DNA of 64,000 bases, from NCBI GenBank assembly GCA_020284085.1, contig JACEVL010000204.1:1395816-1459815 (forward strand). Direction: 5' to 3'. Under the pieces are notes generated by a model. It did no database searches, was not told the DNA's origin, and saw only the letters and a program-made list of their open reading frames with translations. This document shows, piece after piece, positions 1 through 63,413 of the stretch. The position numbers and the translations under genes were made by a program. This stretch comes from Aporrectodea caliginosa. Lineage: Eukaryota; Annelida; Clitellata; Crassiclitellata; Lumbricidae. Each line of letters opens with the position of its first letter. The first letter of the stretch is position 1.

Positions 1-566
1 AACAGACACATTTGTATAATTCTATAAGTTTCAAAAGTGCTCTTTCGGTTTTTTAGTGACAGGTGAAGTCAACAATTTTTAGGCAATCAGAACTAGTGAT
101 GCGACGATAATGACTGTTTAAACTGCAGCAGCACGCCTTTGGTGCTGATCTTGAAGGATAACTGTGCTGTTGTGTGTGCTATACTCAGATACTGCTGCGT
201 CTAGCTTACTCTCTCATGGTACGAGGAAGACTGGATGGTCTATTTGATACGCGTCTCCGACTTCCATCAAACTACACGCCAACATTTTCAAACACTCTTT
301 ATTTGTTGCTTTTAAGGTGGCTTTGCATATTTTCGCTTTTAAATAGAGCTATGATATCAGATCTAAATATAGCTCAGTCATATATATATTTGCAGATTAC
401 ATATAATAGGACATAATGTGACGGCTAGTCGCGTAGTCGTATACACTATTTGAAGTCCATTTTCTTGTCCTGTGTATCTTTCCGTCCGTCTGTCTGGCTA
501 TGTGCTTCTATTGGTGATTTTTATATCTGACAGTGTGCTGATTGTTATGTTAAAATATTGAATAAC

Positions 567-769
567 CTTGCTAGAGCTTTTTCTACGAGAGGAACCCATA
601 CAATAGTCTTGTCGTCTGAATGTACTCCCACATATCGGTCCAAGTCATCATAGAATGGTAGAACATCATCCGTATAGACGTCTATCCATTCTCCCATCCA
701 CGAAAATCGACAATGAACGATGCCAGTGTATTTGTTTGGGTCCGTTTCATACGCATCTTCGGGAAAAAT
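567..769 (-). CDS. Calpain A, exon 3 (protease core)
   Basis: Third coding exon of the left-hand calpain copy. The reading frame opens after a TAG acceptor at 770-772 and closes at a GCAAG|GTTATT donor. It encodes the stretch between the catalytic Cys and His, with the family hallmarks GEWIDV, DDVLP and WVPLVEKALA. It is 203 nt, against 212 nt in copy B, because of a 9-nt in-frame deletion in the loop after the DDVLP motif. It ends in phase 2 like its paralogue. The following exon should lie to the left of base 1, so the gene is cut by the window edge. Confidence 0.85.
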
Positions 770-1491: not shown

Positions 1492-1623
1492 CTGCTTAAT
1501 GTACTCAGAATGGTCAGCTATGGCTGACAAGGTCGATATGAAGAAACAATCGCTGACTTGACCCTGCTTAGCGCAATATCTGTTGATGGTGTTTCCAAAG
1601 AGTCTGACGTCTGAAGTGAAATC
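1492..1623 (-). CDS. Calpain A, exon 2 (catalytic cysteine)
   Basis: A 132-nt, phase 0/0 exon between CAACAG at 1624-1629 and GCAG|GTACAC. It encodes the catalytic motif QGQVSDCFF, the calpain 'QG..(G/S)DCW' signature with Phe in place of Trp. The Asp before the Cys is kept here, unlike in copy B. The longer open frame around it (1210-1839) is intronic read-through. The exon follows exon 1 directly, placing the WKRPK end of exon 1 about 25 residues before the Cys, as in other calpains. Confidence 0.87.
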
Positions 1624-4844: not shown

Positions 4845-5189
4845 TTTTGGCCTCTTCCAAGTGAGTTTGATTGTTTTGCCTTCCCTGTCTTTCTGAAATA
4901 CACGTGGAAACGTCTGATCTGTCCATGGTTGTCCGGTAGTTGCTGTTGGTTTCTGCATAGTGTGGGCGTCATAGGGCAAGAACTGGCGAGCTCTTAGGGT
5001 CCTTTCGTGACGACCAAGGATCAGACTTTGTGCAGACAATAAGTCTCTTTGTTCCCGGCTTTTTGCCTTAAGCTCAACGGAAGATGTTACAGCAAAATTA
5101 TCAAACGCTAACACGCCATCACCTGACTTAGCTTCCTCAACAAAAGGAGTAACCACCCCCGTAGATTCTTTCGAACAGCAGCAGCCCAT
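4845..5189 (-). CDS. Calpain A, exon 1 (lipid-anchor N-terminus)
   Basis: First coding exon of the left calpain gene: 115 codons from ATG at 5189 to an AAAA|GTAAGA donor. The protein begins MGCCCSKE, a consensus for N-myristoylation at Gly2 with neighbouring cysteines for palmitoylation, suggesting a membrane-anchored protease. It ends with TLRARQFLPYD, then WTDQTFP and LTWKRPK, the lead-in to the calpain protease domain (usual form 'F.D..FP....W.RP'). It lacks the 20-codon insert seen in copy B. The intron to exon 2 is 3.2 kb and carries a LINE remnant and a fold-back element. Confidence 0.85.
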
Positions 5190-10652: not shown

Positions 10653-10655
10653 TTA

Positions 10656-11444: not shown

Positions 11445-11525
<81 letters not shown>

Positions 11526-13513: not shown

Positions 13514-13778
13514 TTTATTTATGGCATAGATTGTTCCATTTCATCAAAAATATTAATGTATTATCTGTCATAATTGTCATTGTCATTAACAACAAAATTA
13601 ATTATAATTGATTATCAATCTTCCTCGTCATCACGATTTCTTCGAAATTTTATATTATTAGCTGTTGTTTAAGAAATTTATCGAAGAAGAATAATTGACT
13701 TTGTTACAAAATCAAGTCATTGCTAAGTTGAAAACAATCGCAAGGCGAGCAACCAAGTTGAGTCATCGATAGCTCGCC

Positions 13779-14018
13779 TCAAGTGGAAAGCTCTGTTAGG
13801 ATTATTTTCGAATGTGTTTGGGCGGCTATCACAAGAGCGAATTTCTTCTCATCCGTTGGTTTTTCAGCGAAAACGAGAACAAGATATCGACCCGGAGACA
13901 ACATGTAATGGCCATTCGCTTCGGAAGAGTACATAAAAGGATGTGTTTTACCATCTATATCTTCAACCCGTGCATTTTTGCGAAGTATATCATTGGTCAC
14001 GGGAAAATCTGCGTCAAT
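13779..14018 (-). CDS. Calpain B, exon 15 (C2-like module 3, part c, stop)
   Basis: Terminal exon, 240 nt with stop, after TCTGTACAG. It encodes 79 residues containing GHYMLSPGRYLVLVFAEKP and KKFALVIAAQTHSKI, then ends. No penta-EF-hand or further domain follows. It closes the reading frame at residue 915. Confidence 0.87.
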   Translation of the reverse strand: MDADFPVTNDILRKNARVEDIDGKTHPFMYSSEANGHYMLSPGRYLVLVFAEKPTDEKKFALVIAAQTHSKIILTELST

Positions 14019-14116
14019 CTGTACAGAAACACATACATAATTATTTCATATTATGATTAATGATGATGACGATGATGATGATGATGATTAATATTATTAT
14101 TATTATTATTATTATT

Positions 14117-14184
<68 letters not shown>

Positions 14185-14185
14185 T

Positions 14186-14225
<40 letters not shown>

Positions 14226-17200
14226 AGGCTAAGTCGCAAAAGGTCAATATCCAGAAGATCAGTCTGCTGAGACACAGAAACAGCCTATTATGGTGTATGC
14301 ATAAGCAATCCGAAAGGGCTGCGTTTTAAAGTGAGCAAGAAATGACACACGCGACTGATCAGAAGCAGCATGTACAGATTGTAGGTCCAGCAACCGAGAC
14401 AAATACGTCAAGATCTGATCATTATAATTATTACAGGTTTGACGCCCGCGGGCTCATATCATCATCGAAGTTATTTTTACTATCTTAGGACGGGAAAACA
14501 TCTGGTTTTGTTATATGTAGCATCACGTTGGTTTTCAAAGCCGAAACCAATAACCTGGAAAGTATATCCTAAATGGTAGATTAAAAAAGCCAGCGAAAGA
14601 AGGGGAATGTTTCCCCTTTCGTACAAATCGCATCGTGAAATCATGAAAGTCGATAGCAGTTGCACATGCACAATTATTCTGAGTGAAGAATTAATTTAGT
14701 AAGGTGGGTTGCCACCCTCAGGCACTGAACCGTATATGATTCTAAGGTCTTGAAATATTTGTCAATATAGGCCTACTGCATCCAAAGCTAGCTATAATTT
14801 GCCGGTATCAGTTACTTAACAAGGGACAGAATTCAAATAATAGACAAAGTCATTTTTGTCATCTAATTCAAATAAAGACTTTTAATCAACTTACTTGAAT
14901 GATGTGGCATCCAATAGCGCAGATTGGATCTATGTTCTCTTGTAATACAGAAATAAGAACTGGTTGATTGGCATTACCTGTTGTAAATGTAAAGAATGTA
15001 TATCATGGTTATAGGTCTGATTAATGTAGTCGATTGCTAAGCTGCGATACTGTAATATAGAAATCGTTGAAAGCAGTGTTCTTGTGTCAACAAAAGCAAA
15101 AGCTTTTGGTTGCCAACTGTATGCTAGACATGATTCATCCATTATAATGAACTCTACTGCGCTATTATAATAGTGTGAATGCCTATGTATCTCAATAACA
15201 AACCTGTAATAATTTTATCATTCTGCTAGCAGATTTCTTTTTATACAGAGACATAGATTTTACTCTGCAACAACCTTGTAATAGGAACGTATTTCATATC
15301 AATTACCCACCGTGCGAAACAAACTCGCCTGTAACGGAAAGTCCATACTGTGGATTTCTGTCGAACGAGTTGTTGCTAATCTGGCCTCCAGCTGACAGAT
15401 TCTTCACCCATTCGCCAAACACGATATCTACTTTCTCTACAATTTCAACACAAGTTGTAAGTTTTAAAACAACTTTTCTTCAGTCAAATAAATCCGGGTC
15501 CAAGCTTTTTAGATGTGGTTCTAGCTAAGACGATAAGTGAATAAGCTCAGCGCTCGTGAATAAGCTGGTGTCCTGCGCTTGGCTTTCGAGTGGCGCTTTA
15601 TAAGTTTGGAGATTACGATTACGATTACGGTGATACAGTAATAAATTGAATGAAACTTGTATGTATGTAAGTCTGCATAATGCATATGGATATGCATACA
15701 CGCATGTATGTATGTACGCATGCATGTTTGCGTTTATGTTGGCCTATGCAATGTGCACACGCTCGAGTTTTTCTTCACCTAACAATTACAGACCAATTTA
15801 CGTTGAAAAATCTTAATAGAAATTCTTCCACGTGAGTAAGAAATAGCTGATTAATTACACGATTCGGAAAATGACACTACTACAAATTTAACCAGTTAAT
15901 TTGTGTATGACTTGTAATAAGCTATGATTCTAGACCAACGGACCGCTTTTGAACAATGCTCGACGATTGCTCGTGTCTTTTTATGCTATATTGAACAAAT
16001 ACTTTACTTCATGACCAATTTACCTAACTTGAAGATTTGATTTCCATGTTCCAAACTGTTTTCAGCTTTTCGTACAAACATAACTGGATTTTCGGTATCA
16101 GACCTAAAAGCGCAATAAATGCTGATATGCCTGAGAAAGAAGAAGGGATGGAAGAAGAAGAGGAACAACAACAACAACAACAACAACAACAGTACGAACA
16201 AGAACAACAGCGATAACAATAGCAAGAGTAAGAGCAGTCATTTAAATTAACCCCGAGAGCAAATTCCTAGGCAATAGCTGTAAGAGGGTTAATTTTTAAG
16301 CAGCGGCATATCTATGAGAGCTAGAGGCCAACCCTCCGTCGCTGCTTATTGTTTCCTCCGACAACGTACCTACTAGAGATATAGTGGTACTAATTATAGC
16401 TGAGTTGGCTAGAGGGCATAAGTGGAATATGCTTGAATATTGATCAATATTAAATGTTTGCCCATCCACTAGGCCCTATATCTACATATAAGTTGGCTTT
16501 CAGTAGCAGGGTTAATGGTTATTCATGGTTCAACTGGCACAACAGACAGGTTCGGTAATCGGTTAAGAATGTAACAAATCGTTTATCCATTTATTTATTC
16601 ATATCACTGAAGTAGCTTCGCCTTAATATATATCTAATCCAGTCCAGATTAGTCACAGTCCAGCATTGGCGAAATAGAACAGTTCTATGTGCTGATGACA
16701 AGGATGCTTAGCGAAAACGACACAGATCGGGAGAGGCTATCTGACTATCATACTAGGTCGCCGCTGCGATAATCAAAGTTCGCTGATGTAATTGTGCCAA
16801 AACTAAAATGGGTGATCGGGTCTTTCGAATCGCTGGTCCACGTTCCTGAAAAAGTCTTCATGCACCAATTCAGGAGGCCAGAAACTTTTATGCTTAAAAT
16901 ACCAGTTAAAATGTATTTGGTGTGGCAGATAGTTTCCCCAAGACGGCTTCTAGATGATGTATTCGCTGATGCTGCATGAACCATCGGACCATCGGGGAAC
17001 TTACATGTATGGTTGGCGCATATTGACGGAGAGCTATATATACAGATTCAAAGTAAACGTTTGGCAAAGCAGACTATACAATTGTTGAAAAGTATCTTAT
17101 ATCACGAAGTAGGTAACTGCGCAGCAGGAAGATGCATGAACTTATGTCCAACTAATGAACCTGCCAAACCTGTTCAACAATGTTTCGTTTCTTACCTGCA

Positions 17201-20200
17201 TTGAACCTGACTGGAGGTCGAAATTGTAATGCAGAATTCGCAGGCAATCGATTCTTCATCGTAGAAGAATGGCAATAGAAGATAATTTCCCGGCATCAGT
17301 TCATATTTAAACAGAGGTAATTTCCGACAAATTGTCTAGCGCAGAGTAGGTCTCTTGAAGATGCGCTATATAAATTCTTAGAATGAATGAATTCCCAGAA
17401 TGAATGAGGAAACCTGTGCAAGAATGTTTTTACCTGCATTGCACCTGACAAGAAGCCAAAATTCTAATGCAGAATTCGCAGGCAATCGATTCTTCGTCGT
17501 GGAAGAATGGCAATAGGAGATAATTTCCAGGTATCAGTTCATATTTAAACAAACAATCGCCGACATATAAAGACTTTTCCTTCTCAGGTATTTGCTTCAT
17601 TGACCTCCAAAGTCGTTTCTCTATTAGTTGATCCTTTTCAATCTGTAAAGACGTACGCTTCAGTGCAACGTCAAGCGAGATATTAAATCATTTTCACAAG
17701 ATAGGCTACTATTGTTAAAATGGTCGTTGTTGTTTAGCGCTTCAGCATAAAGATCGCTCGAACTCTGAAGCAATGCAAGAGGGGACTGTCAAGTGTGGTG
17801 CAGTATAAAGTGCAGACCGTATCTTTCGGCTCAAAGCATCTCATATTTACCCAGTCCACTTGGTAATCAAGAGCAGGAAACACGAAAGTCGGCTATGCAT
17901 TAAATAAACAAGTATTAATATTTCATTAATCGATATTTGTAAGTATGCGTGATTGTAATCGTATGTACAAGTGCAGAGAAACAAATGATGATGAAGTATT
18001 CAATTATAGGAAGCAGATACGAATAAAGAGAATGCGATTTAAGAAAAGGAGGAAGGTGAGACATTAGCGTATAAATTATACCCTGAAAACATCAATATCG
18101 GACTTTGGAATCCTGTTCACATCCTGATTGCACCGCAATTGAAGAAGGACCGTTGCTTGTTGTCCAGTACTATTGATATCTGGCAAATGTCACCACAAAA
18201 TCAAATGAACAAGCTTACATTAGATTTACTAATAGCCAGATATTCATTCTTAATACCAAGTACATGTGTATTAACTTGCTACTGGATGTAAATTCAAACT
18301 CAATTCAATTTATCTTTTATACGGAACGACAAAGAATTTTGCAATTCAAATAACGTGCCACGAAGGTGAGAGGTTAACCCATTAATAATTTTATTATAAT
18401 TGGTTAATATAAAAAATAATAAAATCTTCAACTTTAAAGGGTCAAAATAGTATAAGCTTTCGTTAGCCACTAGTCATCATCGTTAATCGTTTGCTAATGT
18501 AAAACTGTAGATCTACCTGGAATTGTCAAGATAAATTTCGGATTTCTCATTTTAGTCTTTGTGTGTCCAGCCGCCGTTTCGCCTTTCCATTCGCCGAACA
18601 AATTCAAGATACAGGCAGCTGAGAAAAAATAGAACGTAATGAAGTTTTAAGCATTGACAAATAACATACAATGACCGAGATAGACCAGACAGTTCAAACG
18701 ATCTACTTCTTGTCGCAATATGAAAAACTTTCGCAGTGGGAGAGACTAGTTTATATGAAGCAAACCTTGTTCTGGTTTAATCTAGAATTTTAGCTAGCCT
18801 TAGTAGGAATTTCGAAATACGGTACGTAACCATTAGTTGGAACTGCATAAAGCTAAACAACGTTTAACTACCTTGCATGAAGAAATCTGATGTTCGTTTG
18901 CACTGATGTCTTGAAACTATTAAACTGGAATGCTGGTATTAGAAATCGCTCCGCTTCTGTATTAAATGTATGTCTGGCTCTTTATAATTATAGGCCTAGA
19001 GCCAAAACCAAGTTGCGCAAATCAACGTGGTAGGCTAAATGCGCAAATATATCGTCTTTTCTTAATTGGTTGACAAGAAGTCGTTTAGGTTAACAGTCTA
19101 TTTCCAGTTAGGCCTATATTTTTAATCAAACAAATAATTTAATTCTTGTAAAAATATATAAAACAATTTCCGTGCTAAGCGTTCTTGTTTCCTTAATCTG
19201 ATATAAATTTCCGAATGTCACTATGATTTGGTTGACTTAGTTGAGTTAAATTTCTAATATATTCTATCGTAAGCGCTAATTACGGCAGGCCTATTAATAT
19301 TTTGACCGAAAACAGCTAATGAATATTACCACTGTCTTTGTCGCCAAATGCATGAGGCCACGTTCCATGAAAAGCAGTTGGATATTCATTCATTTGACTG
19401 CGAAATGAGAATCACAATTATCATGTAGATTATAAACTTCATCTCTTTTAAATTACTAAACCAAACATTTCTCTTTAACTACTTTGAATTCGACATTCGG
19501 CAGATTAAGTACCATCCCCTCTGACCTTCGGGCCACCTAACACATTGATCGACTCATCGGCCCATGTACCAGCTCTCTCCATGCCCTGAGGCTTCTGCGA
19601 TCCCTTGGTCTCCCACCTGCGGCGCTTTATGGTGCTGCAAGGGCAACAATTATAATTATATGACGTCTCTTTAATGCTGCCCTGGCATGTTGGGGCCTCG
19701 CTTCAGCCGGGGACTGTTTGAGGCTCGAGCGCTTCCTGAACAAAATGAATCGCATGAACTTCATGACATTTAAGCTCCGAGTGGATCGAATCATTGATTT
19801 GAGTTATTCTTTTACCTGTTTGCTCTGACCGATAAGGGTTACATTCCAGAAGACATTGCACTTAAAGAGTAACACCGTTCAAGGTCATTTCAAAAGGTCA
19901 AAATCAAGTAAATATGGCCGTAACTTATCGAAATGGTGTTTTATTTGGGTGGTTCCGAGTTATGGTCATTTTACATTGATCTGGACCTTTGTTTTGCCAT
20001 TTGCTGGACTACATACAACCTTATATAAAAACTATGATTTGGCGATATCATTAAAACTCATTAAATGTCGGCTGTTTAAATGTAGGCCTATTAAACTACA
20101 GATTTCAACAACTTTAAGCATAAATTGAAATATAATAGGAAATAATTTAGAAATCGCTTCAGGCTTACAATTATTGTGAAGAATCACTGAAGATTAGATA

Positions 20201-23200
20201 TAATTATTCATTTATTTCTAAACGTGTCACTTTCATTGTTAGAAAATACGGAAGCAAAAAGCAATACTCGCTGTGACCTGCATCTGGCATTCACATTCGT
20301 AAAGATCCTGACACAGAACGATTTGCTAACAGGTGGCTTTACTTGGCTGTCGTAAAAGTAAGGTAGCAGCAGATGATCGCCTGGTGATAATTTGCACAGA
20401 TATGTCGTGGTACGACTTCCAATGTGTTTTTTCTCCACTGTCTGTTTGTTCAGGCTCATCCACAAACGATTGCCTCGAACTTCTTCCTTTTCTATCTGTT
20501 AGATTAATGTGAGGATACTTTATTACCATAACCATAACAATAACTACACTTTTTATTGAACCAATGAAACAAACCCATTGTTTCGTGACTCTTCTTTTTC
20601 TATCTGTTAAATTAATTCAAGAATAGTTTATTAGCAGAACGCATTTGGCAATTCCTGGATATAAAATATTATAATAGTTTGCTCATGGAAATTGTATTGT
20701 ATCGCAACCTTTCTGTAAAACATATCGCATCCCTATCATTCTGAGACTATTATAGCGCCCATATTCCTATACGGATCCAATTTGATGCTCATGACAATGC
20801 TGACAGAGATGAGGCATTGCTGCGATAAAATCAATATTAGGTTCGACGCTTTTTCGATTGCATGAGTAATTTATAGATGTGTGAATATAGACTATAAATT
20901 CTTGAAATGAATGAATGGTTGTACCTTATATATGTCGATCACACCGATCAATTCGTCATTATCGTCTTTGCTGTTCGCCGGATTTTCAAACTGTCGTGTC
21001 ACCTCTATCACGACAGACAATGCTTTCGCGTTATTCTGCCCTATAACAACAATTCACAATCATTATTGTGAAAACGTTAAGTTTGTACAAATGAAACTCG
21101 GGCGAATTAGGCTTATAAGATTATGATCAATGATAGATCTTAAGCACTTTCTTTTGTTATTTTAATTACAAATTCTGCACAGATTTTAAGCATTTTCTTG
21201 GGGCTAAATATGGTTCAGATCGTGGTATCTGATCATGTCTACCCACGGAACTCATGTTAGAGTACTATCCTTACTTGCTGCTGCTTACCTACCAGACCGG
21301 AATTCGCTCATATACAAATTATATTGCCAAATACAGCTAGTCTCTTGTAATATCATAATACGCCACAAACAATTAAATTCGTAAGGAGCTGGAATTTTCT
21401 GCTGCTGGGCTGCCGGATATCCGACATGCAGACTGTTGACAGGTTAAAGCGTTTAACCACCGAATACCTCACCTTAAGTGCAGACATGCGTAAGCATGCA
21501 GCTGCAATTATTGTAGATAGTGTTACGAATATATGCCTAATAGAAGTATTGGTGATATACGACTTGAAAAGACTTTTGGAGAAGTATAACTTAACCGATT
21601 TAACCATATAATCGATGTTTAAGGCTGAATAAACTGTCACTGTGCTTTGTCTGTGTCTTTACCTGGAATCGTTAGAATGAATCGCGGATTTCTCATTTTG
21701 TTCTTTTCTTGGTTTCCAGCAGATGTTGCACCATGCCATTCACCAAGAATGTTGATAACCTTATCTAAAAATGTAACGCCAACTACTCATGTAGATCATA
21801 GAGCCGTTTCCACAATCCATGTACTATGAGATATCTCGTTAGCTGGTCCGAATGCTTGGAACACGCTGTCAATTTTTATCTGTCTGTTCATTACTTTAGT
21901 GTCTGTTCAGTGCTTGATTCATAACTCATATGCATCAACGTCCGCGCAAAATACAGATATCAGTTTGCAGTTGGCTGGAAGTCTCCAGAGGATTAATGAT
22001 TATGGAATGTGGTTTCACTTCCGTGCGACCAGAAACTCAGTTCTAGGGCAATTAAATGATTGCACTATGCATTATAATAAGCTAAGATTAGATTGCAATC
22101 TCCCGCTTGTTCAGCCTACTGAATTTTGCAATCTTTATCGTAAGTGAAAGTCTTAGCTTACAGCTTTCGTTTAGAGATAGGAAATCCAAATATTAACAGT
22201 TGGGGCAGGCAGTATAGTCTACGGCGCGGAGTTTGTTCCAGTGACTATAAACTAGTTTCTAATGTTTCGACGTTTCAACGTTATATAACCTTAGCCCAAA
22301 TAGTTTAGAGTTAATATTTGTAAACATATGCAAATCATATACACTGTAAAATACTTACCTAATCCGTCCTCTTTTCTAAACCCATCTTTGTCAAAATTTG
22401 GAATCCTGTCGCAGATATACAGGTTTACAAAGAGTTGGAAGAAGTCTTCCATGCAAACCCAGAACTCTCCTCCTTTGTCAATATGAACGTTATGTTGCTG
22501 TCGCAAGGTTTCGTCGACTTCCTTCCATTCCTTCGATGTGTACGACCAACGACCTTTCCATTCACCATCGTTTACTCGTTTCCCGGTTTTATCCTTCTCT
22601 CCCCAAGGATTTCTTATCCTTAGTAGCTTGGTAACTTGTTTCTGATGTTCTATCTGCTCAAAACATGCAACAGTTGGTCAATTTGGGACAGCGGTCGTCA
22701 TTCGAACATGAACTCAAGGGTTCCACAACTGAAGTCAAGACACAACATAACAATCCAGCTTTCTCCAGCGGCCTACACATAAAGATTTCTTACTGCAGTT
22801 TCACTGGATGCGACTTTCTTTTGATGTTTTGAGCATTATGATAAAGGCGTTGAAGAACTCATTAGATTAGGATAGATTAAATCAAAACAGATTAGACTAT
22901 ACTAAACCAGATAAATATGCTGAAAATCACTAAAAGCGCCAGAATTAAACAACAGCGATTCGACACCTGAGCATTAAATAGCCTACAACCTGGTGATAAA
23001 GTCCAAAACGGCTTAACCTAAATATTAAAATAAAATCAACATCAATGTGTAGTTTGGACAAGCCTGTTCGCTCACTGTATGCCTACTGGCTCGCCAGTTT
23101 CTTAGTCACGTAAAACCTTAACCCAAATTGTCATTATTTTGAATTGCGTTGAAAATCGCAGAAGACAAAAACGATCTTCTGAAACTGGCGTTTTTTTAAT

Positions 23201-25616
23201 GCACGAATATCAGTTCAACTCATATTGGCGATGAAATTACACAATGCACCGATATGATACAACGGCTTACCTTCAGGACGCCGGTAACAGAATAAGTATG
23301 ATTCGGCACCAGGCCCTTTAATTGACACTCAGCTACTTCCTGTAATTTAAAACTATATCAATAAAGCAACAGTGGAGGCATTTAGCAATTCAGATTAAAC
23401 TGAACTGTTTCCGGCCACTCGCATACCCAGTAACGTCTCATTTAAATTTAGTAATTGTTGAATAATAGTATTATTTTAAATTAAACACTGCATCTCTCTT
23501 TAGAGGCTACCCTTCCTTTGATCAGCATCTTCTGGAAAGTATGCTGCTCCTGGTTCACGTCATGTCTTTGGCTGCCATTTATTCATACAATAAGACTTAG
23601 TTGTAACGCCAGCTAAATCTATCTACCGCCTCTTGATTGGAGACTCTCGCTGAAACTATACAATCCTCTCCAAAGTGCCAACTTTTCTGTCCAATCTGTT
23701 TATGGTTCATACTCTGCCAGCATCCCGAATAAACAATTGGTAGAAGCCTTACGAGACCTAATACGGCTCATACGGAAAGATTTACCCCGTATGGCTTCAC
23801 AATGGCATGCTGGCTGGGTAATGTTATTTGTTTCGTAGTCAATCAAATCGTTCTTTATTGTTTCAAAATTTTAGTTACAGTCTATGAGAACAGCACATTT
23901 GAAAACAAACAATTATTAAAGAGTAGGTACAAATTGGTTGGGTGCATAGTGAAGAGAAACAATGGGAGAACCAAAAGGGACCTGAGTCCCGCTAGGCAGG
24001 AACCCCCAAGCAGTGATATAGGATCAGTTGTACATGACAATTTCCAGTGCTGACAACCAAAAGTTACAAAAATTTTAAACAAAATATTATAGTGATACGA
24101 GGAGTCAGACACCATGATGCATATTTCTAAACAGTGAATTACCGGGGGTACTTGAACCGAGTTCTACAACAATTTCATGTTATTCCTAACTATTCTTAAC
24201 TAACAACAACATACCTAATCATTATACAACAACCAGCAGGAGGAGGAGAATTAAGTGAAAAATCAGTATGGTAGGCAAATTTAGAGCAGGTATTTGAAAG
24301 GTACATGTAGTCGAGGAGAGAAGAATTCTTAGTAGAGCCCACATTCATTTCAATTGGTAGATAGGAGGTGCATTCTTAAAGCATTTTTGAAGGAAGCTAA
24401 GATATTTAAGCTGCGTATCTCCCAAGGCAGATTATTCCAAGTCATAGGACCATTGTGCTTGATCGAGTGTTTCCTGTAATTTGTTCGAAATCTGACTGGG
24501 CGAAGATTTTCCTTGGTCCTTGTGTTGTAATTATGTATCTCATTAAAAAAAGTGAAGTAATCTTTAAAATTCAATGGTAAGGCTTTGTAGTGGATCCGTT
24601 CACGCCCCGGACGTGAGCGGAATCCAAGCACCTACATTCACGCCCGTCTCGCTATTGGCATGTCACGTGAATTTGCTAACTTCGCTGGGATTTTTAAATG
24701 GCGGACATCTTGAGGGTCGTTTAAAGTCAGGTTCGGCGTCGTGAGGGTCGGGTAGGGTCAGGTTAGGCGCCGTGAGGGTCGGTTAGGGTCGGGGTTAGGG
24801 TTAGGGTTAGTGTCGTAATTAGAAAATATAGTCAACAATCTTCCACCGCAATCGGGAATGTTTATCGGTCGGCTCCTTTTACCTCCACAAAATCATGTGA
24901 CATGCATTGGCCAATTGCGTGGCGGACGTGATTCAAATCCTGTGTATACAATCACGTCGGACGTGACTCTATCCACGATCTATTTGTTTTGCCATGCTTC
25001 AATGCACACTTCTGAACTTTATATATGGGAAAGCGAAAGCGGCATCATCAAATTTAAGATATAGGCTATGCATATGTATCTATGAATGATTTTACATATG
25101 CAATGTGTGCACTGTGCATGCTTCTATGTATAGTAGGCTATGCATACATATGTATTTGTGTGCTGTATATTCAGGTACGTATGCGTGAATGTCTAAATAT
25201 AATTATATACACACGCGTGCACGATGCATGTATTATTATTATTGAATAAATTTGTAACGCGCAAGGTCACACCGAAATGTGAATCTGAAGAAGGAAGAGA
25301 AAGATTGTATTGTATTCAATTGTACTGTATTTAAAGATGTATAAAGCGCCTCTCACAGTGGCCACCAATTAGAGGCGCTCCCATTACGAAAGTGACCGAG
25401 AATAAAGACAAGTTTTGAGGTAGCGAAAAGATGTAGCAGGGCCACTGGATAGTATGGTGGTGCGAAATCGTTAAGGGGTCATTAAAGTTGATTCCATAGC
25501 GAAGAACCAAAGCAGGCCCTTGTAATCTTCAGTAGTTGTTAATTTATAATAAACATTTAATAATTATGTCTTATGATTATACAAGTCACTTATTAATCTA
25601 ATCCTTAGCGCTATCT

Positions 25617-25648
<32 letters not shown>

Positions 25649-28600
25649 TGTATGTATGTATGTATGTATGTATGTATGTATGTATGTATGTATGTATGTA
25701 TGTATGTGTGTACGTATTATCTATTTATGTATTCATTTCAGATATTTATATAGCGCCCTTCAAGTATTTCTACTCAGAGGCGCTCATGAATACAGCGCGG
25801 AAACTGAATACATAGTTTCACGACCGAAAACGCATGAGCAATTTAGACGTGATAATTTGCCCAGGGTCCCTACGACAGGCAGCTCTGAAATGTTGACTCA
25901 GCACAGTGCAACCTGACTCAGAACCTTGCAAGGCACCAAATAATACCCCTTGAGGTGGAAGTCGAACCCGCAATCCTCCGCTTTGCAAGGCACCGAACAT
26001 ACCTCTACACCACCGCGCCCCAGTAGTCGGTATGCATTCGATGCGTGCCTGCAAATATGAAGTTACATATTTACTATTTAGGTATATGACCGGAAAATGT
26101 ATGAAGCACCTTTTTTATAATTATACGTCATAATTTATCCAGGGACACTACGATGATGGTATTATATGCTTACCTCTGAAATGTTGGTCAGCATACATGT
26201 AGTGGATCCTGACTTCAGAACCTTGTAAACACGTTCAAATAATTTATCAGGAGGCAGAAAGTCATCGTCTTTCTTATCTTTAGCTTTTGAAGTCTTCAAT
26301 TCCTCAACCAGTCCTCCTGTCAGTAGTCGGAAACCTCCGACGGGTTCCCAGCTATTTGTGGATAGCTTCCATACAGCCTTTATGAAATCAAGTAACGCAA
26401 AGGAAAATGCACGAATTTACAGCTATTCGATATTCACTCATTCATTCATTCATTCATTCATTCATTCATAAATTTATATAGCGCCCCTTCAAGAGGACTA
26501 CTCAGAGGCGCTCCCGACTCCAGCACGCTGAAAAAGTACAATTTTGAGTCTAGTAATTTTAGAAAGCTTCAATAATAGTCTCAGGGAGCAGGAAATCGTA
26601 TTCTCCTGGGGAGACCCGTTCCGGAGTGACTGGGCCCACCTTGGAAAAGCAGCAATAGGCTTACAGTGTTGATCTTGAAGGCTACCTGTGCTATAATTGC
26701 GATGGCATACTCTGATACTGCCGCGTCTAGCTTACTCTCAGTGATAAGAGTTTCAGTGGATGGTCTACGCGATATACGCTTCCGACTTCCAGAGAACTTT
26801 TCGTCAACATTTCGAAACGATCTTCATTCGTTGGGGCTAAGGTGGCTTTTTGGGTGGACGCATAATGCTCTGAGGAGTGTTTATATGTTAATCTGTATAT
26901 TTTCACTATTAATTAGAGCTACGATATGTAAATGTTGTTCAGTTGTATAAAAATGCGGGCTACAAAATATGACGGCTAGTCGCGTAGTCCTATACACTAT
27001 GTGAAGTCCAATTTCTTGTCCTGTGCATGTATATTAGTCAATCTGTCTATCTGGCTGTCTGTATGTAATGACGATTTTTATATCTGATGGTGCACGATTA
27101 TTATTATTATTATTAAATAAATCTGCACACCGAAATGTGAATCTGAGGCGCGGATTGTCATGCTGATTGTTATGTAAATGTATTGAGGAACCTTGCTAGA
27201 GCTTTTTCTGCGAGGGGAACCCATACAATATTCTTGTCGTCAGAATGTGCTCCAACATATCGGCCCAAGTCATCGCTGTCATCATGGTATGGCAGAACGT
27301 CATCCGTATAGACGTCGATCCATTCTCCCATCCACCAATATCGACAATGAACGATGCCGGTGTATTTGCTTGGGTCCGTTTCATATGCGTCTTCAGGGAA
27401 AATCTACAAACCATGCATTTTAAGAAAATAGTTTAAAAGTAAGACATGCTGTGAATGAAACTGTGAGTCATTTAGACCGATTTTATTACTGTGTGATGTC
27501 CATATCATCCATCGTAATAAACTTTAAAGCACGCAAACTTTTCTTACTGTTATGATATTGCATGAAGCATCTCCTGATATGATCACTTATTCAGGATTCC
27601 ATTATAACTTTTGTTCAATTTTAGACGGCACAGCTTCATATGTTCTTAGTACAAAAATTCGTATAGCCTTCAGCTAATAATTACTCCTTAGACTACATGA
27701 CATGAACATCTATCTCATTTCCTGCGTTGCGCATCTGCATTGCTTCGAAAAATAAATACAATCAGACGCCGACACTTCAAGTGTTATTACTGAACAGGTA
27801 AAGAAACTGTCTATCCATTAAAGTCTTGATTTATATGAAAATGGTTAGACATAAATATCGTCGTAATCGTAATCACAAACTATTTCTGAAGCGGTTCTGT
27901 AGTGCTAAGCGCAGGGCATTGGCTTATTCACGAGCGCTGCGTCGTCAGAGGGATTGTTCAAAGGTAGCCTAGGACGACTATAACTTAGTTGAATAAGTTG
28001 AAGAAAGAGTCAAGGGTCGCTGAAAGAAATCACTAAGCTGATATATTACACTGAATGAAAACTATAAAGTAACCTCATTCTTTGAATTAGCTGTAGCACA
28101 TGAGTTTGAATGATAAAGTCATCATTGTGATCGCATTTGACATTCATAGGCCTAATATCGCAACAAGCAAAAAAATGGGTAGGCCTATACGTGTTTTAAC
28201 CTCTGAATCTAATAATTGCTTATTCAGCAGCTGCTCGATGATATCGTTTGTAGAAGGTTTTTTAAATAAGAGGCAAACTAGTTACCTGCTTAATGTACTC
28301 CGGATGGTCAGCCATGGCTGATAAGGTGGATATGAAGAAACAATTGCTGGCTTGGCCCTGCTTAACGCTATACCGGTCGATGGTGTTTCCAAACAGTCTG
28401 ACGTCTGAATGGAAATCCTGATGAAATTTGAAATCGACAACAAAGCATTATAGTCGACAATTTAGTTGGATTTCAATAATCCTCTTATAGTCTGGTTCTA
28501 AGATATATTGAATGTGAAAGATTTTATTGAGGTGCATGTAGGCCTACATATCTAATTCATTGCCTTATTGTTTCATTGTTGTTGTCTTCAGAGGGGTTAC

Positions 28601-30341
28601 ATAAATCAAACTGATTGAAATTACTATTAATTAAATTTGAATTAAGTCTGTAATGCTATTTTAGCTAAAATTGTGGCAAAAGATGATTTTGTCTGTAAAG
28701 ATAAGTTAAGATTTTATATTCTTTTGTTATTGTGATTTTGATTACACTTATTTTATGAGCCCAAACTATTCTAAATCATTAACTGTCTTTCTTTCCTTAT
28801 CTGTATTTTTTTTAGGTGTCCCTATTTAGCTGAAGAACATGAGTTTGAATACATCAAAAGTCATCATTGTTTTTTTTCTCTTCTGATCAGAAATAAATTT
28901 GATTCATTGATGATGCAATCGCCAACAAGAGGCAGCCATAAAAATTAGCTACATTATATTAAAGTGTGCCTTTTCGAAGCAATTTACACCTCTGAATCTA
29001 ACTCTGAACTTATTAACAGAAAGTCAGTTAACCCTGCTCGATTACCACCCATACGTTTTTTGCATAATTTTTTTTCCATATGGAATATTTTTTACAAAGT
29101 AAGAGCGCAAACTAGTGGTACCTGCTTAATGTACTCCGAGGCACCAGATGGTCAGCCATGGCTGATATAGTTGATATGAAGAAACAATCGCTGGCTTGGC
29201 CCTGCTTAATCGCTATACCGGTTGATCAAAATGTTTCCGTAACAGTCTGAAAAACGTCTGAATGGAAATCCTGATGTAATTCATTTGTCTTTGAAATCGA
29301 CAGACAAAGCATTATTGTCTACATCTTTTCTTTTTGTTGGATTTCAATAATACTCGTAATATGTGTGAAAATGGCTGAATACAGCATTACTAAGATATAT
29401 GTATGGATATATAATTGAATGTGAAAGATTAAACATTGTTAAGGTGCATGATTAGCAAAAGCCAAGCATTTGTTTATCCGAGGCAGCCGTAATATAACTA
29501 GCTACATTTTATTAAAAATGTTTTAGTCCTTCCTAAATAACCATTCTTGCGAAATGAATTTACAGTGCTATATTACTGCTTTAAATAAACTACGTCATAA
29601 GGACTCTGAACCAAGTTAGCCGATGAACAAAAAGTCTTGGTAGCCCTAGGGTTAACAAGCAATGCTCATATAAATGGTAAATCCCGAATGGCGGGCATCC
29701 GTGCAAAGCCAAGCCTACGGATTAATGAACAGTCAGGTCATTTATGTAAGAAGGCCAGAAGGCGTGGAAAGTGGTGATAGCCAGAGAATTCTCTAAATGA
29801 ATTTCAGTTTGAAATATCAACAGATGGCTTGGCAGTTTAGCATACTGAACACAAGACTATAACGCTATAGGCCTACTGCTTTTTAAATAACGAATCACGC
29901 TCTATTGTGTAGGTTGTTGAAATAGGTTTGTCTTACTTTTGGCCTCTTCCAAGTGAGTTTGATTGTTTTCCCCTCCTTGTCTTTCTGAAATACGTGTGGA
30001 AACTTTTCATCTGTCCATGGTTGTCCAGTAGTTGCTGTTGGTTTCTGCATTGTGTGTGCGTCGTAAGGCAAGAACTGACGAGCTCTTAGGGTTCTTTCGT
30101 GACGACCAAGGATCTGACTTTGTGCAGACAATAAGTCTCTATGTTCTGATACGACATTGTCTATGGGAACTTCTTTAACCAAAGGGGAAACCACTCCACT
30201 TTGTTCTCGGCTTTTCTCCTCTAGTTCAACGAAAGATGTTGCAGTGAAATTATCAAACGCTAATATGTCGTCGACTGATTTAGCGTTCTGGACAAAAGGG
30301 GCAGCAACTCCCTTAGATTCTCTCGAACAACAGCAACCCAT
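13779..30341 (-). CDS. Calpain B gene, 17 exons, three C2-like modules (overview)
   Basis: Assembled gene model, coding sequence about 2.75 kb (915 codons plus stop). Order: MGCCC lipid-anchor region (1-135), protease core with Cys161, His332 and Asn352 (136-435), then three calpain C2-like/CBSW modules (about 436-580, 604-740, 767-915) separated by linker exons. All splice phases join in frame, except that exon 4 needs one extra nucleotide. Calpains are cytosolic regulatory cysteine proteases. Classical forms carry one C2-like module, while calpain-7 and -10 types carry two. I see no penta-EF-hand. Three modules with an acylated N-terminus is unusual. The exon 4 frameshift and the Asp-to-Asn change before Cys161 leave open whether this copy makes an active enzyme. 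A candidate polyadenylation signal (AATAAA) lies at 13514-13519. Confidence 0.85.
14059..14222. repeat. (ATG)n/(ATT)n/(ATC)n microsatellite
   Basis: Triplet repeat of ~160 bp inside the intron between calpain exons 14 and 15, only about 40 bp upstream of the exon 15 acceptor at 14019-14020. Confidence 0.97.
14895..14977 (-). CDS. Calpain B, exon 14 (C2-like module 3, part b)
   Basis: An 83-nt exon from ACAACAG to ATTCAA|GTAAGT, 2 in and 0 out. It encodes NANQPVLISVLQENIDP and AIGCHIIQ, the family's 'VLISLMQ.......IGFHIYKV' strands. Confidence 0.86.
15311..15436 (-). CDS. Calpain B, exon 13 (C2-like module 3, part a)
   Basis: A 126-nt exon from AATTGTAG to GCACG|GTGGGT, 2 in and 1 out. It encodes VDIVFGEWVKNLSAGGQ and NPQYGLSVTG. 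Of the three a-exons this is the closest to the classical calpain domain III start ('GEWVRG.SAGGC...NPQY.L'). Confidence 0.87.
15518..15635 (-). repeat. Dispersed repeat with (TAATCG)n tail
   Basis: Minus strand 'gtaatcgtaatcgtaatctc' next to 'gcgcaggacaccagcttatt' and 'cacgagcgctgagc'. The same block occurs at 27855-27950 and 41366-41450, and a stub at 12615. It is probably the 3' end of a retroposon. Confidence 0.65.
16024..16103 (-). CDS. Calpain B, linker exon between modules 2 and 3
   Basis: An 80-nt exon from CTTTTAG to AAGTTAG|GTAAAT, 1 base in and 1 base out, again the phases required between exon 12 and exon 13. It encodes about 26 residues including ENPVMFVRKAENSLEHG. No domain is recognised. 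It is analogous to the first linker exon in position and phase but not in sequence. Confidence 0.65.
17196..17316 (-). pseudogene. Partial duplicate of calpain exon 12
   Basis: The reverse strand repeats the 3' part of exon 12 (YELMPGNYLLLPFFYDEES and onward, same TGCAG|GTAAGA donor), but the first ~85 nt with the acceptor are missing and no AG acceptor lies in a suitable place. About 240 bp separates the two copies, and the flanking intron is duplicated as well. It is probably non-coding, yet it is open and has a perfect donor. Confidence 0.75.
17434..17642 (-). CDS. Calpain B, exon 12 (C2-like module 2, part c)
   Basis: A 209-nt exon from TTTACAG to TGCAG|GTAAAA, 0 in and 2 out. It begins IEKDQLIEKRLW and contains YELIPGNYLLLPFFHDEES and CEFCIRILAS. 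It is homologous along its length to exon 9. Its 3' two-thirds are duplicated just downstream (17196-17316). Confidence 0.87.
18082..18179 (-). CDS. Calpain B, exon 11 (C2-like module 2, part b)
   Basis: A 98-nt exon from TTTGCCAG to TTCAGG|GTATAA, 2 in and 0 out. It encodes INSTGQQATVLLQLRCNQD and SDIDVFR, the module's central strands, in the same position and phase as exons 8 and 14. Confidence 0.82.
18517..18618 (-). CDS. Calpain B, exon 10 (C2-like module 2, part a)
   Basis: A 102-nt exon from TTTTCTCAG to ATTCCAG|GTAGAT, 2 in and 1 out. It encodes NLFGEWKGETAAG and MRNPKFILTIP. It is nearly a copy of exon 7, showing cassette duplication. Confidence 0.87.
19330..19397 (-). CDS. Calpain B, linker exon between modules 1 and 2
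   Basis: A 68-nt exon, TTTCGCAG in and GACAGTG|GTAATA out, with 1 base in and 1 base out. These are exactly the phases needed to connect exon 9 (2 out) to exon 10 (2 in). It encodes about 22 residues including AFHGTWPHAFGDKDS. No domain is recognised. The support is the phase fit and the intact splice sites. Confidence 0.65.
19500..19830 (+). mobile_element. LINE reverse transcriptase fragment
   Basis: The plus strand reads ALRLLRSLGLPPAALYGAAR and, after an interruption, CCPGMLGPRFSRG, matching the 'HGL....L..VARAT..ARLLYAAPAWWGF' region of jockey-type LINEs. The same region is clearer at 31.75-32.05 kb. It lies in the intron between calpain exon 10 and the first linker exon and is badly decayed. 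Confidence 0.6.
19830..20145. mobile_element. Fragment of the 'caaggtcatttcaaggtca' fold-back family
   Basis: It shares 'cagaccgat.agggtacattccagaagaca' and 'ttcaaggtcatttcaa.ggtcaaaatcaa.taaatatg' with the arms of the 2 kb fold-back at 51.0-53.1 kb. It has only one arm and no clear ends. Confidence 0.6.
20278..20495 (-). CDS. Calpain B, exon 9 (C2-like module 1, part c)
   Basis: A 218-nt exon from CTAACAG to TGCAG|GTCACA, 0 in and 2 out. It contains the domain III C-terminal strands KLSPGDHLLLPYFYD and SKSFCVRIFTNVNARC (family: 'L.PG.YLIVPS......G.F.LRVF'). It aligns end to end with exon 12: both start IEK(E/D) with RLW about 10 residues later. A ~50-bp duplicate of the exon's 5' border lies at about 20575-20630. 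Confidence 0.86.
20925..21040 (-). CDS. Calpain B, exon 8 (C2-like module 1, part b)
   Basis: A 116-nt exon from TTATAG to TATAAG|GTACAA, 2 bases in and 0 out. It encodes NNAKALSVVIEVTRQF and ELIGVIDIYK, matching the middle strands of calpain domain III ('..VLISL.Q......IGF.IYKV'). Confidence 0.84.
21663..21764 (-). CDS. Calpain B, exon 7 (C2-like module 1, part a)
   Basis: A 102-nt exon, 2 bases in and 1 base out, from TTTTTAG to ATTCCAG|GTAAAG. It encodes ILGEWHGATSAG and MRNPRFILTIP, the start of the calpain domain III beta-sandwich (family: 'G.W..G.TAGG....NPQ..L'). Exon 10 has identical length and phase and a very similar sequence. Confidence 0.87.
22359..22641 (-). CDS. Calpain B, exon 6 (catalytic asparagine)
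   Basis: A 283-nt exon from ACATCAG to TTAG|GTAAGT, phase 0 in and 1 out. It contains LLRIRNPWGEKDK, giving the catalytic Asn352 and adjacent Trp354. It continues with GEWKGRWSYTSKEW, GGEFWVCMEDFFQLF and LYICDRIPNF, which is the textbook C-terminal part of the calpain protease core with its 'EW.G.WSD.S.EW' and 'G.FWM...DF...F' signatures. No defects are seen. Confidence 0.93.
23271..23339 (-). CDS. Calpain B, exon 5 (catalytic histidine)
   Basis: A small 69-nt, phase 0/0 exon after TTACAG with donor CTGAAG|GTAAGC. It encodes KGLVPNHTYSVTGVLK. It matches the calpain 'GLV.GHAYSVTGV' motif and supplies the catalytic His332. The usual GHAY is NHTY here. It was found by position and motif, being too short to show up as a standalone reading frame. 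Confidence 0.88.
24340..24640 (-). mobile_element. 3' fragment of a LINE reverse transcriptase
   Basis: A 93-codon open frame contains EIHNYNTRTKENLRP, KHNGPMTWNNLPWEIRSL and ILASFKNALRMHLL, the 'HNYNTR...GP..WN.LP..IR...S...FK..LK..L' C-terminus of non-LTR reverse transcriptases. It is 5' truncated and lies in the intron between calpain exons 4 and 5. Confidence 0.8.
25619..25707. repeat. (TATG)n microsatellite
   Basis: About 22 TATG units directly next to the tail of a SINE. Open frames across it are spurious. Confidence 0.97.
25735..26022 (-). mobile_element. tRNA-headed SINE with LINE-like tail
   Basis: On the minus strand the element starts 'ggggcgcggtggtgtagagg' and has a B-box-like 'gcgggttcgacttcc', as in a tRNA-derived Pol III head. 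Its tail 'gagcgcctctgagtagaa...ggcgctatataaat' is the same as the 3' end of LINE copies in this window. A sister copy lies at 31505-31735. It lies in the intron between calpain exons 4 and 5. Confidence 0.8.
26174..26377 (-). CDS. Calpain B, exon 4 (protease core, apparent 1-nt deletion)
   Basis: Entering in phase 2, the exon reads LYGSYPQIAGNPSEVSDY and meets a TGA. One frame over, it continues TGGLVEELKTSK... and then LPPDKLFERVYKVLKSGST to a TCAGAG|GTAAGC donor. Both halves are clear calpain sequence (family: 'KL.GSYEAL.GG....L.DLTGG'). One base is therefore missing at about 26324-26335, either a real frameshift mutation or an assembly error. With that base restored the exon is phase 2/0 and joins exon 5 correctly. 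Confidence 0.83.
26432..26650 (-). mobile_element. LINE 3' end with (TGAA)n tail
   Basis: Minus strand: 'gggagcgcctctgagtagtc' through 'ggcgctatataaatttatg' followed by about nine TGAA units. It belongs to the LINE family that donates its tail to the SINEs here. It lies in calpain intron 3. Confidence 0.7.
27192..27403 (-). CDS. Calpain B, exon 3 (protease core)
   Basis: A 212-nt exon, phase 0 in and 2 out, after GTTTGTAG and ending GCAAG|GTTCCT. It encodes residues 180-249 plus two bases of codon 250. Family landmarks are YTGIVHCRYWWMGEWIDV, DDVLP, and WVPLAEKALA, which leads into the 'KL.GSY' segment at the start of exon 4. It differs from copy A mainly by three extra codons in the acidic loop DDSDD. 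Confidence 0.88.
28286..28417 (-). CDS. Calpain B, exon 2 (catalytic cysteine)
   Basis: A 132-nt phase 0/0 exon between CATCAG and AAGCAG|GTAACT. It encodes residues 136-179 and includes QGQASNCFF with the nucleophile Cys161. The residue before the Cys is Asn, where calpains and copy A have Asp. A second, decayed copy of this exon lies 0.85 kb upstream in the same intron. Confidence 0.87.
29125..29266 (-). pseudogene. Decayed duplicate of calpain exon 2
   Basis: Reverse strand reads almost the same as exon 2 (QGQASDCFF is recognisable), but small insertions break the frame. Examples are extra bases in the segments for DVRLFG and NTIDRY, and an extra block between the ADH codons and the EYIKQ codons. 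Flanking intron sequence is duplicated too: 28840-29480 resembles 28090-28560, both starting near 'catgagtttgaat'. It still ends in AAGCAG|GTACCA, so it could be mis-spliced as an exon, but it cannot encode the catalytic segment in frame. Confidence 0.8.
29937..30341 (-). CDS. Calpain B, exon 1 (lipid-anchor N-terminus)
   Basis: It has 135 codons from ATG at 30341 to the same AAAA|GTAAGA donor as copy A. It starts MGCCCSRES (myristoylation Gly2, cysteines 3-5) and ends WKRPK in phase 0. Relative to copy A it carries 20 extra codons after SREQ. The added segment (GVVSPLVKEV...) resembles residues 11-20 of the same exon (GVAAPFVQNA), so it looks like an internal tandem duplication. Start choice: this ATG is the only one giving the conserved acylation motif in both copies. 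Confidence 0.87.
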
Positions 30342-31504
30342 TGCAATAGCTTCTTTATCAACGTCACACTGTGGTAGACGAACGAGTGGACTGTACAGAA
30401 TTTATACACAGTCAGCGACAAAGATCAGGTCGATACTTCCGCAGGAAAGATGTCGTCAGCAATGCAAATATCGAAACTACAAAGGCGGTAGCGACATGAT
30501 ACGGATAGGCTAGTGCAGACAATAAGTCCCTGATACGGATAGGCTAGTTAATAGCTTGTTCAAACACGTGTTATGTTATCTGAAGTAGATACTCTTATTG
30601 CCACTGCAGTTATTTTGAAGTAATTCTTGACCTTATCTCTTTGATATCCAATACAGTGTTTGTGCGCGTTGCCTGACGGCGCCGGGCAAGGTGCCGATAT
30701 ACTCAGGCCCACTCATAAAATGCTTAACATAATCGATTTAACACGAATTCCGAAGTAATTTCAATTTTGCTTTCTAATCTATGCGCGTACGGAAACCTGA
30801 CAGGTATGTTTGGCAACAGAGTAATAGATACTATTATAATAGGTCTACTTGTAAGACAGACAAGGAAACGTTAAATTCGCTGAGCTAATTGATCAAGCTA
30901 CAAGGTGCAGCCTTTCTTCAGCGCTTTCGTCCTTAACCAAAACCTTCACCATTTGTTGCCACCTGTAACAAACGTAACAAAAATGTATTTGACAGCTGCC
31001 TCGAGTGAAGGTCTGTTGCGTTGCACGTCATGAGTTTGTCAAGTGTTGTGCCTTTGGAAATATTTAGTTTTTTCAAGTGAGTTCATATTGGTACTGCAAT
31101 ATACTTCTTTAAACTACTCTAATTTTTCTATTATTTTAAATTATTATTATTATTATTTCAAACGTTAACACCATAGAGCATACTGCAATACTGCCTGCAC
31201 TCACTGACTCGACCCCCTCCATCCATTTACCCAACCAACCAACCAAACATGCAACCAATTCACTCCCTCACTTTCAATTTCGCACACTGACTCACTCACT
31301 TTGAACTACGGCGAACAGACTTAAGCCCAGTTCTGAGAACTGTATGCACACAATGAATCACAGAATACCTAGAGGACTAATAGTGTTTACCACACTATGG
31401 AGCATAGAAAGGCGAAGTCGCGGAAACTTGAACGATCTCACTTTATAATGTGTGAATATCGGGGAAGTAAACCTATTTTAAGTTATTGTAAGTTGTTCAT
31501 ATGT

Positions 31505-31735
31505 ATGGGTATGTATGAGCACTTGTTATAGCTCCCCTTCAAGATTTCTACTCAGAGGCGCTTCCGACTACAGCGCGGACACTGAATCGGAGTTTCACGC
31601 CGAAGCGCATGAGCAATTGCGAGTGAAGGACATGCCCAGGTGGGTCCCTACTGCGGCGGCTTGAGGTGGATTCGAACCCGCAAGGGTACTGGGGCTTAAG
31701 GCACTGAACATACCCCTACACCACCGCGCCCCACA
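31505..31735 (-). mobile_element. tRNA-headed SINE, second copy
   Basis: Minus strand 'ggggcgcggtggtgtagggg', B-box-like 'gcgggttcgaatccacctc', then a body and the 'gcgcctctgagtagaaatct' tail. It has the same structure as 25735-26022 with moderate divergence. It inserts in the flank upstream of calpain B. Confidence 0.8.
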
Positions 31736-31744
31736 GGGCTAGGC

Positions 31745-32360
31745 AATCCATGCAGCGCCGTACTTCTGGAGTGACCTTCCACCTGGTATATAGCATGAGG
31801 GTACTGGGGGTTATGCTCTCTGAAACTTTAAGTTTTGATAATATACACATTACCCAAATATGCTGCAGGGTTAGGCAATCCATGTATGCCCTGCGCATAC
31901 TAACTGCCCATGGTCTATCTGGCCCTGGGCTTTACGATGTGGTGAGGGCGAAAACGGTGGCACGCTTGTTGTATGCTGCTCCGGCATGGTGGGGCTTTGC
32001 CGGCCAAAGGGAGAAGTGAATGTTCCAGTCTGTAATGACCAGATTGATCCGTCAGCGATACCTCCCAAGCGAGAGTCCAACCTTTGAACAACTATGCCTT
32101 AAAGCCGACACCTGCCTGTTTTCGGCGGTCCTGAGAAACCCGAGCCATGTTCTCCATAGGTTTCCCTCTCCATAAAAGCCGTTGGCCTATTCCCTTCGAC
32201 CCCGGTCACATGACCGTGTTTTACCTTTAGCTGACCATAATATGAAAAAAACTTTTATAGTTAGAATGCTTTATTCATATTGACTATTGATTGTTTAATT
32301 ATAATTATGATGTATGTACACCGGAATGCGGATTGCAGCTGGTTCAATAAAGAATATAGG
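31745..32360 (+). mobile_element. 5'-truncated LINE, reverse transcriptase C-terminus
   Basis: The plus frame contains LGVMLSETLSFDNIHITQIC, QSMYALRILTAHGLSGPGL and VARLLYAAPAWWGFAG. After a stop it continues LIRQRYLPSESPTFEQL, a standard jockey-type C-terminus. It ends near 'ttcaataaag'. It is absent from the equivalent left-copy flank. Confidence 0.82.
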
Positions 32361-38426: not shown

Positions 38427-38628
38427 TTATACATGTCTCATTTGAGACCAGTCGTGTGGAAAAGCCTTTAAAACTTGCCTAATAAAATGTCTTGAAGCAA
38501 CTGCCATTTTTTCCTACAATTCACAAATATTATTAACAAGTGAGGAGATTACAATGGAGTGCAATAAATGCAATAATATGGGCGCTGGACTTATATGAGC
38601 TGCATTGTGTGGCCGATCTTATTCCGTA

Positions 38629-48476: not shown

Positions 48477-48746
48477 CTTACCTGTAAAAAAACACACAAT
48501 ATTACTGTGGCGGACAGGCCACAGGACAGAGTGAAGGCTGAATGAAGAATGCATTAATTAATATTGATTTTCTGCTATATGGTGTCGCGCCTCTGAATCG
48601 CTAGGTGGCGTGTCACATACACTCGATTCGCCTTATAATAAATATAATTAAAATTATACGTTCGCTTACTCGGAACAAAACGAGGGTGATGCCATTAAAA
48701 ATTCAGGGCGTAAATGCTAGTCCTGGGATAAGACTAATTTCGCCAC

Positions 48747-63345: not shown

Positions 63346-63413
63346 CATTGTTACAGTTTTAAGGACTAAACAATACAATTTTCTGAAATGCAAACATATT
63401 TAAGGTGATGGAA

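Follow-up and report, generated by a model that had tools for sequence, protein, structure and literature searches.

A probable non-classical calpain with a predicted acylated N terminus and three C2-like modules, encoded in a tandem duplication in the annelid Aporrectodea caliginosa

Animal calpain families with two C2-like (C2L) modules include PalB, which also carries an MIT domain, calpain-10, and the lophotrochozoan Atypical L clade, as set out in the cited sections of a family survey (Hastings et al., 2017; PMC5650170). According to the cited part of a review of CysPc-C2L proteins, the number of C2L modules varies in types 4-6 by tandem duplication, and type 4 has two (Zhao et al., 2012; PMC3563603). 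The cited portion of a study of C. elegans atypical calpains mentions a PalB homology domain and otherwise describes no repeated domain III (PMC3315469). Acylation of a calpain N terminus is described, in the cited part of one report, for Plasmodium falciparum calpain, which carries myristate on Gly2 and palmitate on Cys3 and Cys22 (PMC2746569). Neither myristoylation nor palmitoylation is mentioned in the account of the Atypical L and calpain-10 families (PMC5650170) or in the text of the CysPc-C2L review (PMC3563603), and the C. elegans study does not mention myristoylation (PMC3315469). Among the matches listed in our search of the calpain acylation literature, the calpains were those of protists.

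We analyzed a 64,000-nucleotide stretch of the A. caliginosa genome (assembly GCA_020284085.1, contig JACEVL010000204.1, positions 1,395,816 to 1,459,815; hereafter, the window). On its minus strand, a calpain gene, which we call gene A, runs from an ATG at 30341 to a stop codon ending at 13779 and comprises 15 recognised exons (Table 1). We delimited the exons by their open frames and splice sites, joined them, and scanned the resulting pieces with Pfam. The traits of the calpain family (peptidase family C2) are present, namely a Peptidase_C2/CysPc domain and the Cys, His, and Asn catalytic residues. We consider it probable that gene A encodes a non-classical calpain, a member of a tandem pair or array, with an acylated N terminus, a full catalytic triad, three C2-like modules and, as read, no EF-hand.

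Table 1. Exons of the two calpain genes and additional exon copies, in window coordinates
Feature	Coordinates	Strand	Content and remarks
Gene A exon 1	29937..30341	-	MGCCCSRESKG... to WKRPK; predicted acylated N terminus, then LGRHE-containing segment
Gene A exon 2	28286..28417	-	Catalytic Cys (KQGQASNCFFIS; QGQASNC)
Gene A exon 3	27192..27403	-	Protease core; donor GTTCCT weak; phase 2 end
Gene A exon 4	26174..26377	-	Protease core; one-nucleotide frame change near 26326
Gene A exon 5	23271..23339	-	Catalytic His (PNHTYSVTG)
Gene A exon 6	22359..22653	-	Catalytic Asn (RIRNPWGE); protease core ends
Gene A exon 7	21663..21764	-	Domain III module 1, first part
Gene A exon 8	20925..21040	-	Domain III module 1, middle part
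Gene A exon 9	20278..20495	-	Domain III module 1, last part; donor TGCAG/GTCACA, phase 2
Gene A exon 11	18517..18618	-	Domain III module 2, first part; 63.6% identical to exon 7 (33 columns)
Gene A exon 12	18082..18179	-	Domain III module 2, middle part
Gene A exon 13	17434..17642	-	Domain III module 2, last part; ends in phase 2
Gene A exon 15	15329..15436	-	Domain III module 3, first part; 3' end uncertain (GC donor at homologous place)
Gene A exon 16	14555..14678	-	Domain III module 3, middle part; weakest exon of the model; hand-set borders
Gene A exon 17	13779..14008	-	Domain III module 3, last part, and stop codon; hand-set start; alternative acceptor 10 bases upstream
Gene B exon 1	4845..5189	-	MGCCCSKES...; 71% identical to A over 135 columns, 20-residue gap included
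Gene B exon 2	1492..1623	-	Catalytic Cys (KQGQVSDCFFIS); 82% identical to A
Gene B exon 3	566..769	-	83% identical to A
Degenerate extra catalytic-Cys exon, intron 1 of gene A	29118..29281	-	Frame broken; SDC vs SNC in exon 2
Partial exon 13 duplicate	17195..17314	-	85% amino acid identity over 40 codons; no stop; donor CAG/GTAAGA

Exon 1 opens with the MGCCC start named in the original prediction, which is conserved in a neighboring paralogue, gene B (MGCCCSRE in A, MGCCCSKES in B). We take MGCCCS to match the N-myristoylation pattern (Gly2, Ser6), with Cys3-5 as the residues for palmitoylation. From this motif, myristoylation of Gly2, palmitoylation of Cys3-5, and a membrane location of the gene A product are predicted; the dual acylation originally proposed fits the pattern and keeps the standing of a predicted modification. 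The ATG is preceded in both genes by an in-frame stop at a distance of 21 codons. Gene A also has a TATAAA some 65 nt before the ATG, and gene B a TTTAAAA at the equivalent position, which is compatible with a first exon starting at this ATG. Within exon 1 of gene A, the LGRHE segment aligns with the N-terminal part of calpain-1.

The predicted calpain core was borne out. Joined exons 1-6, with an X at the exon 4 frame change, matched Peptidase_C2 (PF00648) at 228.5 bits (Pfam cut-off 23.8), with the catalytic Cys, His, and Asn encoded in exons 2, 5, and 6, respectively. The Gln six residues ahead of the catalytic Cys is also kept. Exons 1 and 6 gave no NCBIfam match. The best PDB match to the joined gene A protein was calpain-1 (E 2.9e-45), which assigns no family, the 19 PDB sequences listed being calpain-1, -2, -3, -5, -8, and -9 and a mu-like calpain. 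Around the catalytic Cys, gene A reads SNCFF where GDCWL is usual. The residue beside this Cys is N in gene A, whereas it is D in gene B and in the degenerate exon copy; F replaces the usual W after it in both A and B.

For the calcium sites of the core we used the ligand list in the cited part of PMC4057710 (Table 3 and a figure legend). In an alignment, four of the six acidic ligands are replaced in gene A, one of these replacements being sensitive to gap placement. Neither side-chain ligand of site 1 is kept: Asp106 is replaced by Ser in A and by Cys in B, and Glu185 by Ile in both. At site 2, which was scored in A alone because the corresponding gene B exon lies outside the window, two ligands persist (Glu302 and Glu333) and two are replaced, Asp309 by Tyr and Asp331 by Gly, the latter hinging on the placement of a one-residue alignment gap. 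When exon 6 plus module 1 is aligned with m-calpain, nothing in module 1 corresponds to the acidic loop of domain III, and by eye no such loop occurs at that position in modules 2 and 3. Since four of the six core ligands are replaced and the domain III acidic loop is absent, the calcium-sensing tail once proposed for this protein is unsupported.

The tail contains three Calpain_III modules, which scored 35.8, 22.2, and 41.9 bits in Pfam on joined exons (cut-off 21); module 2 exceeds the cut-off by just 1.2 bits, and module 3 scores 41.6 bits with the final exon 16/17 junction. The stop codon follows directly after module 3, ending at 13779. A tail of three domain III modules and a stop had been predicted, and the HMM check found all three above cut-off rather than a single true CBSW domain. 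For modules 2 and 3 the middle exon was a visual choice, which we then tested by removal and reversal. Module 2 fell to 17.9 bits, under the cut-off, without exon 12 and gave nothing with exon 12 reversed; module 3 scored 41.9 bits with exon 16 in place, 37.6 without it, and 35.9 with it reversed. On the strength of the three matches and these controls, we rejected a single-module reading. A further stretch that looked calpain-like by eye (17047-16751) was tried as a fourth module and had no Calpain_III match.

When the three minus frames of 13779-22360 were scanned without selection, one of them gave Calpain_III (37.3 bits, best stretch exon 15), so that the other modules rest on joined exons. 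No EF-hand family was found in the three minus frames of 13779-22360 and 5251-13778, in agreement with the claimed absence of EF-hands to the extent allowed by a scan that is insensitive to short exons, as its detection of Calpain_III in one frame of three illustrates. In two-sequence blastp comparisons, modules 1 and 2 were 37% identical over 147 columns (E 2e-30), modules 1 and 3 were 24% identical over 152 columns (E 4e-7), and modules 2 and 3 aligned in two short pieces only (E 0.002 and 0.004). Between exons 7 and 11, dN was 0.30 and dS 1.54 over 32 codons, indicating that the duplication is old and that the copies are constrained. The tail probably arose by an old tandem duplication of one module, with modules 1 and 2 closest and module 3 more distant from both. 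In phmmer searches of the PDB set with each module alone, no calpain was found for any of the three; exon 6 and module 1 together aligned with m-calpain into domain III (E 1.6e-12 to 1.8e-12), part of the alignment being core. The open frames of exons 11 and 15 contain no Met ahead of the module, and tblastn up to E 0.5 found no catalytic exon between modules. For these reasons, we prefer to read modules 2 and 3 as internal exons of a single gene.

The one continuous gene model originally described does not follow directly from the letters. Exon 4 reads LYGSYPQIAGNPSEVSD in the frame set by exon 3 and then LLTGGLVEEL... in another, being one nucleotide short. Both frames carry on the calpain core in order, and the remaining 14 exons are each open in a calpain-matching frame. 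The break could be a recent lesion or an error of sequencing or assembly, and assemblies often drop a single nucleotide. The TGCAG/GT sites that close exons 9 and 13 leave phase 2, and exons 11 and 15 accept phase 1, a mismatch between modules 1 and 2 and between modules 2 and 3 that calls for a linker exon in each gap. Searches of the two inter-module gaps for such exons gave 0 and 2 candidates under strict thresholds and 11 and 8 under loose ones, none convincing. Where the sister exons carry a GT donor, exon 15 has GC; splicing at this site would give phase 1, whereas exon 16 must be entered in phase 0 to keep its domain III frame, and no good in-phase donor joining the two exons was found. 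Exon 16 can be joined to exon 17 in phase 1, as worked out by hand. Scored with a weight matrix, four of 11 donors and seven of 11 acceptors fell below zero; all 22 sites are GT or AG. We infer, rather than read directly, that all of the exons belong to one continuous transcript.

Gene B, which is of the same kind, starts at 5189 and runs toward the window start (5189-566). Its joined exons 1-3 matched Peptidase_C2 at 102.7 bits, and no exons beyond exon 3 were found within the window. The two genes sit in a colinear duplication, in which 142-12596 matches 26666-38616 (blastn, 15 pieces, 75-88% identity) and which carries the 5' parts of both calpain genes together with upstream DNA. Across 226 codons of exons 1-3, dN between A and B was 0.080 and dS 0.395 by NG86, and 0.085 and 0.304 by YN00, giving a dN/dS of 0.20 or 0.28, respectively; these values leave out the 20-residue gap in exon 1 and the 3-residue gap in exon 3. 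The partial copy of exon 13 shows a dN/dS of 0.18 over 40 codons, and module 2 built with this copy scored 19.0 bits, under the cut-off. It is possible that the copy is an alternative exon or a relic.

The described systems closest to gene A share its plan in part. Atypical L calpains (AplAty of Aplysia and relatives) and vertebrate calpain-10 likewise have a core followed by tandem C2L modules, and they lack a penta-EF-hand, of which the insensitive scan found none in gene A; they have two modules and gene A has three, so gene A departs from their trait of exactly two. Calpain-7/PalB also has more than one domain III module but is defined by an N-terminal MIT domain, whereas exons 1-6 of gene A gave only Peptidase_C2 above the Pfam cut-off. 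The CysPc-C2L types 4-6, as presented in the cited part of PMC3563603, follow the same general plan of core plus repeated C2L, although type 4 has two modules rather than three. Plasmodium falciparum calpain has an acylated N terminus, as is predicted for gene A; according to the cited part of its description, it differs in coming from an apicomplexan, in its long N-terminal domain, and in its targeting to the nucleolus. The core of classical calpains (calpain-1 and -2) aligns with gene A over its full length, but in gene A the insensitive scan found no penta-EF-hand, and four of the six core calcium ligands and the domain III acidic loop are missing. TRA/calpain-5 has a C-terminal C2 domain, whereas the scanned tail pieces of gene A gave only Calpain_III above cut-off. 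Our literature search for three or multiple C2L modules yielded no matching paper. The combination had been said to look undescribed, which appears too broad: two C2L modules without a penta-EF-hand are known in calpain-10 and Atypical L, and C2L number varies, so the overall plan is already known. The part that stands is that three modules with a predicted acylated start appear to be new in detail within the literature searched.

The main rival to our reading is that gene A is a decaying or recently dead tandem copy and that the intact gene is B or a copy outside the window, which we regard as rather unlikely. The exon 4 frame change, the want of a good in-phase donor between exons 15 and 16, the low scores at several splice sites, the D to N change beside the catalytic Cys in A only, and the degenerate exon copies nearby would all fit a dead copy. 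Set against these are the other 14 exons, which are open in the calpain frame, and the dN/dS against B of 0.20 or 0.28 over exons 1-3; loss of a single nucleotide is, moreover, a common assembly error as well as a lesion. If gene A is dead, the locus records routine tandem gene birth and decay.

Two further alternatives concern the product of the gene. The protein might be a catalytically dead, membrane-bound calpain serving as a scaffold, a view prompted by SNCFF in place of GDCWL and by the loss of four of six acidic calcium ligands; we judge it unlikely, since the Cys/His/Asn triad is intact together with the Gln located six residues ahead of Cys, and gene B retains the acidic residue before Cys. 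Least likely, and in our estimate improbable, is that the locus makes alternative products, with a short calpain of one domain III obtained by reading past exon 9 to a stop, longer forms that include modules 2 and 3, and the exon 13 duplicate used as an alternative cassette. In favor of such products, the frame beyond exon 9 continues for 22 codons before a stop, the exon 9/exon 11 phases mismatch, and the exon 13 copy is open, with a good donor and a dN/dS of 0.18. However, the exon 13 copy yields a weaker module, and modules 2 and 3 have no upstream in-frame Met, no catalytic exon of their own was found by tblastn, and exons 7 and 11 are constrained, so that some transcript should join modules 2 and 3 to the core.

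Under the reading we prefer, an acylated, three-module calpain with a full triad, segmental duplication would have made a tandem pair, or a longer array, of non-classical calpain genes. Myristoylation at Gly2 and palmitoylation at Cys3-5, as suggested by the N-terminal motif, would hold the enzyme on a membrane, and the three-module tail may pack on the core and bind partners or lipid as a scaffold. Because four of the six core acidic calcium ligands are gone, location and the tail, in place of the classical calcium switch, would set activity. Tentatively, and with less confidence than we attach to the gene A reading, we propose that in a tandemly amplified calpain lineage of an animal constant membrane anchoring through a myristoylated and palmitoylated N terminus replaced calcium switching; the triad would be active, the calcium sites lost, and the three C2-like modules would form an arm that binds lipid or partners. 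Should a full-length, active protein be made, it would be a lipid-tethered calpain with eroded core calcium sites, in which the contributions of calcium and of location to calpain control could be tested. The repeated-C2L architecture so far described in animals would also grow from two to three modules and gain a lipid anchor.

The window has several other features. Rfam gave nothing at the gathering score and ARAGORN found 0 tRNA genes. A 718-aa open frame on the minus strand (35977-38133) had no Pfam or NCBIfam match up to E 0.01. An acetyltransferase-like gene is repeated at 47785-49255, 42047-43763, and 63389-64000; its 247-aa frame has weak GNAT matches (Acetyltransf_3 at 17.8 bits, below cut-off; PDB phosphinothricin acetyltransferase, E 1e-4), and the copies stand at 94% at the window end and are more distant at 42-43.8 kb. 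An inverted repeat (foldback) of about 2 kb at 51039-53078 is 87.6% identical to its own reverse complement and follows shortly after a reverse-transcriptase fragment at 50467-50826 (RVT_1, 26.9 bits, below cut-off). Finally, inverted copies of a 431-base element, 96% identical, occur at 38656-39086 and 40896-41325 and overlap 153-bp tandem units.
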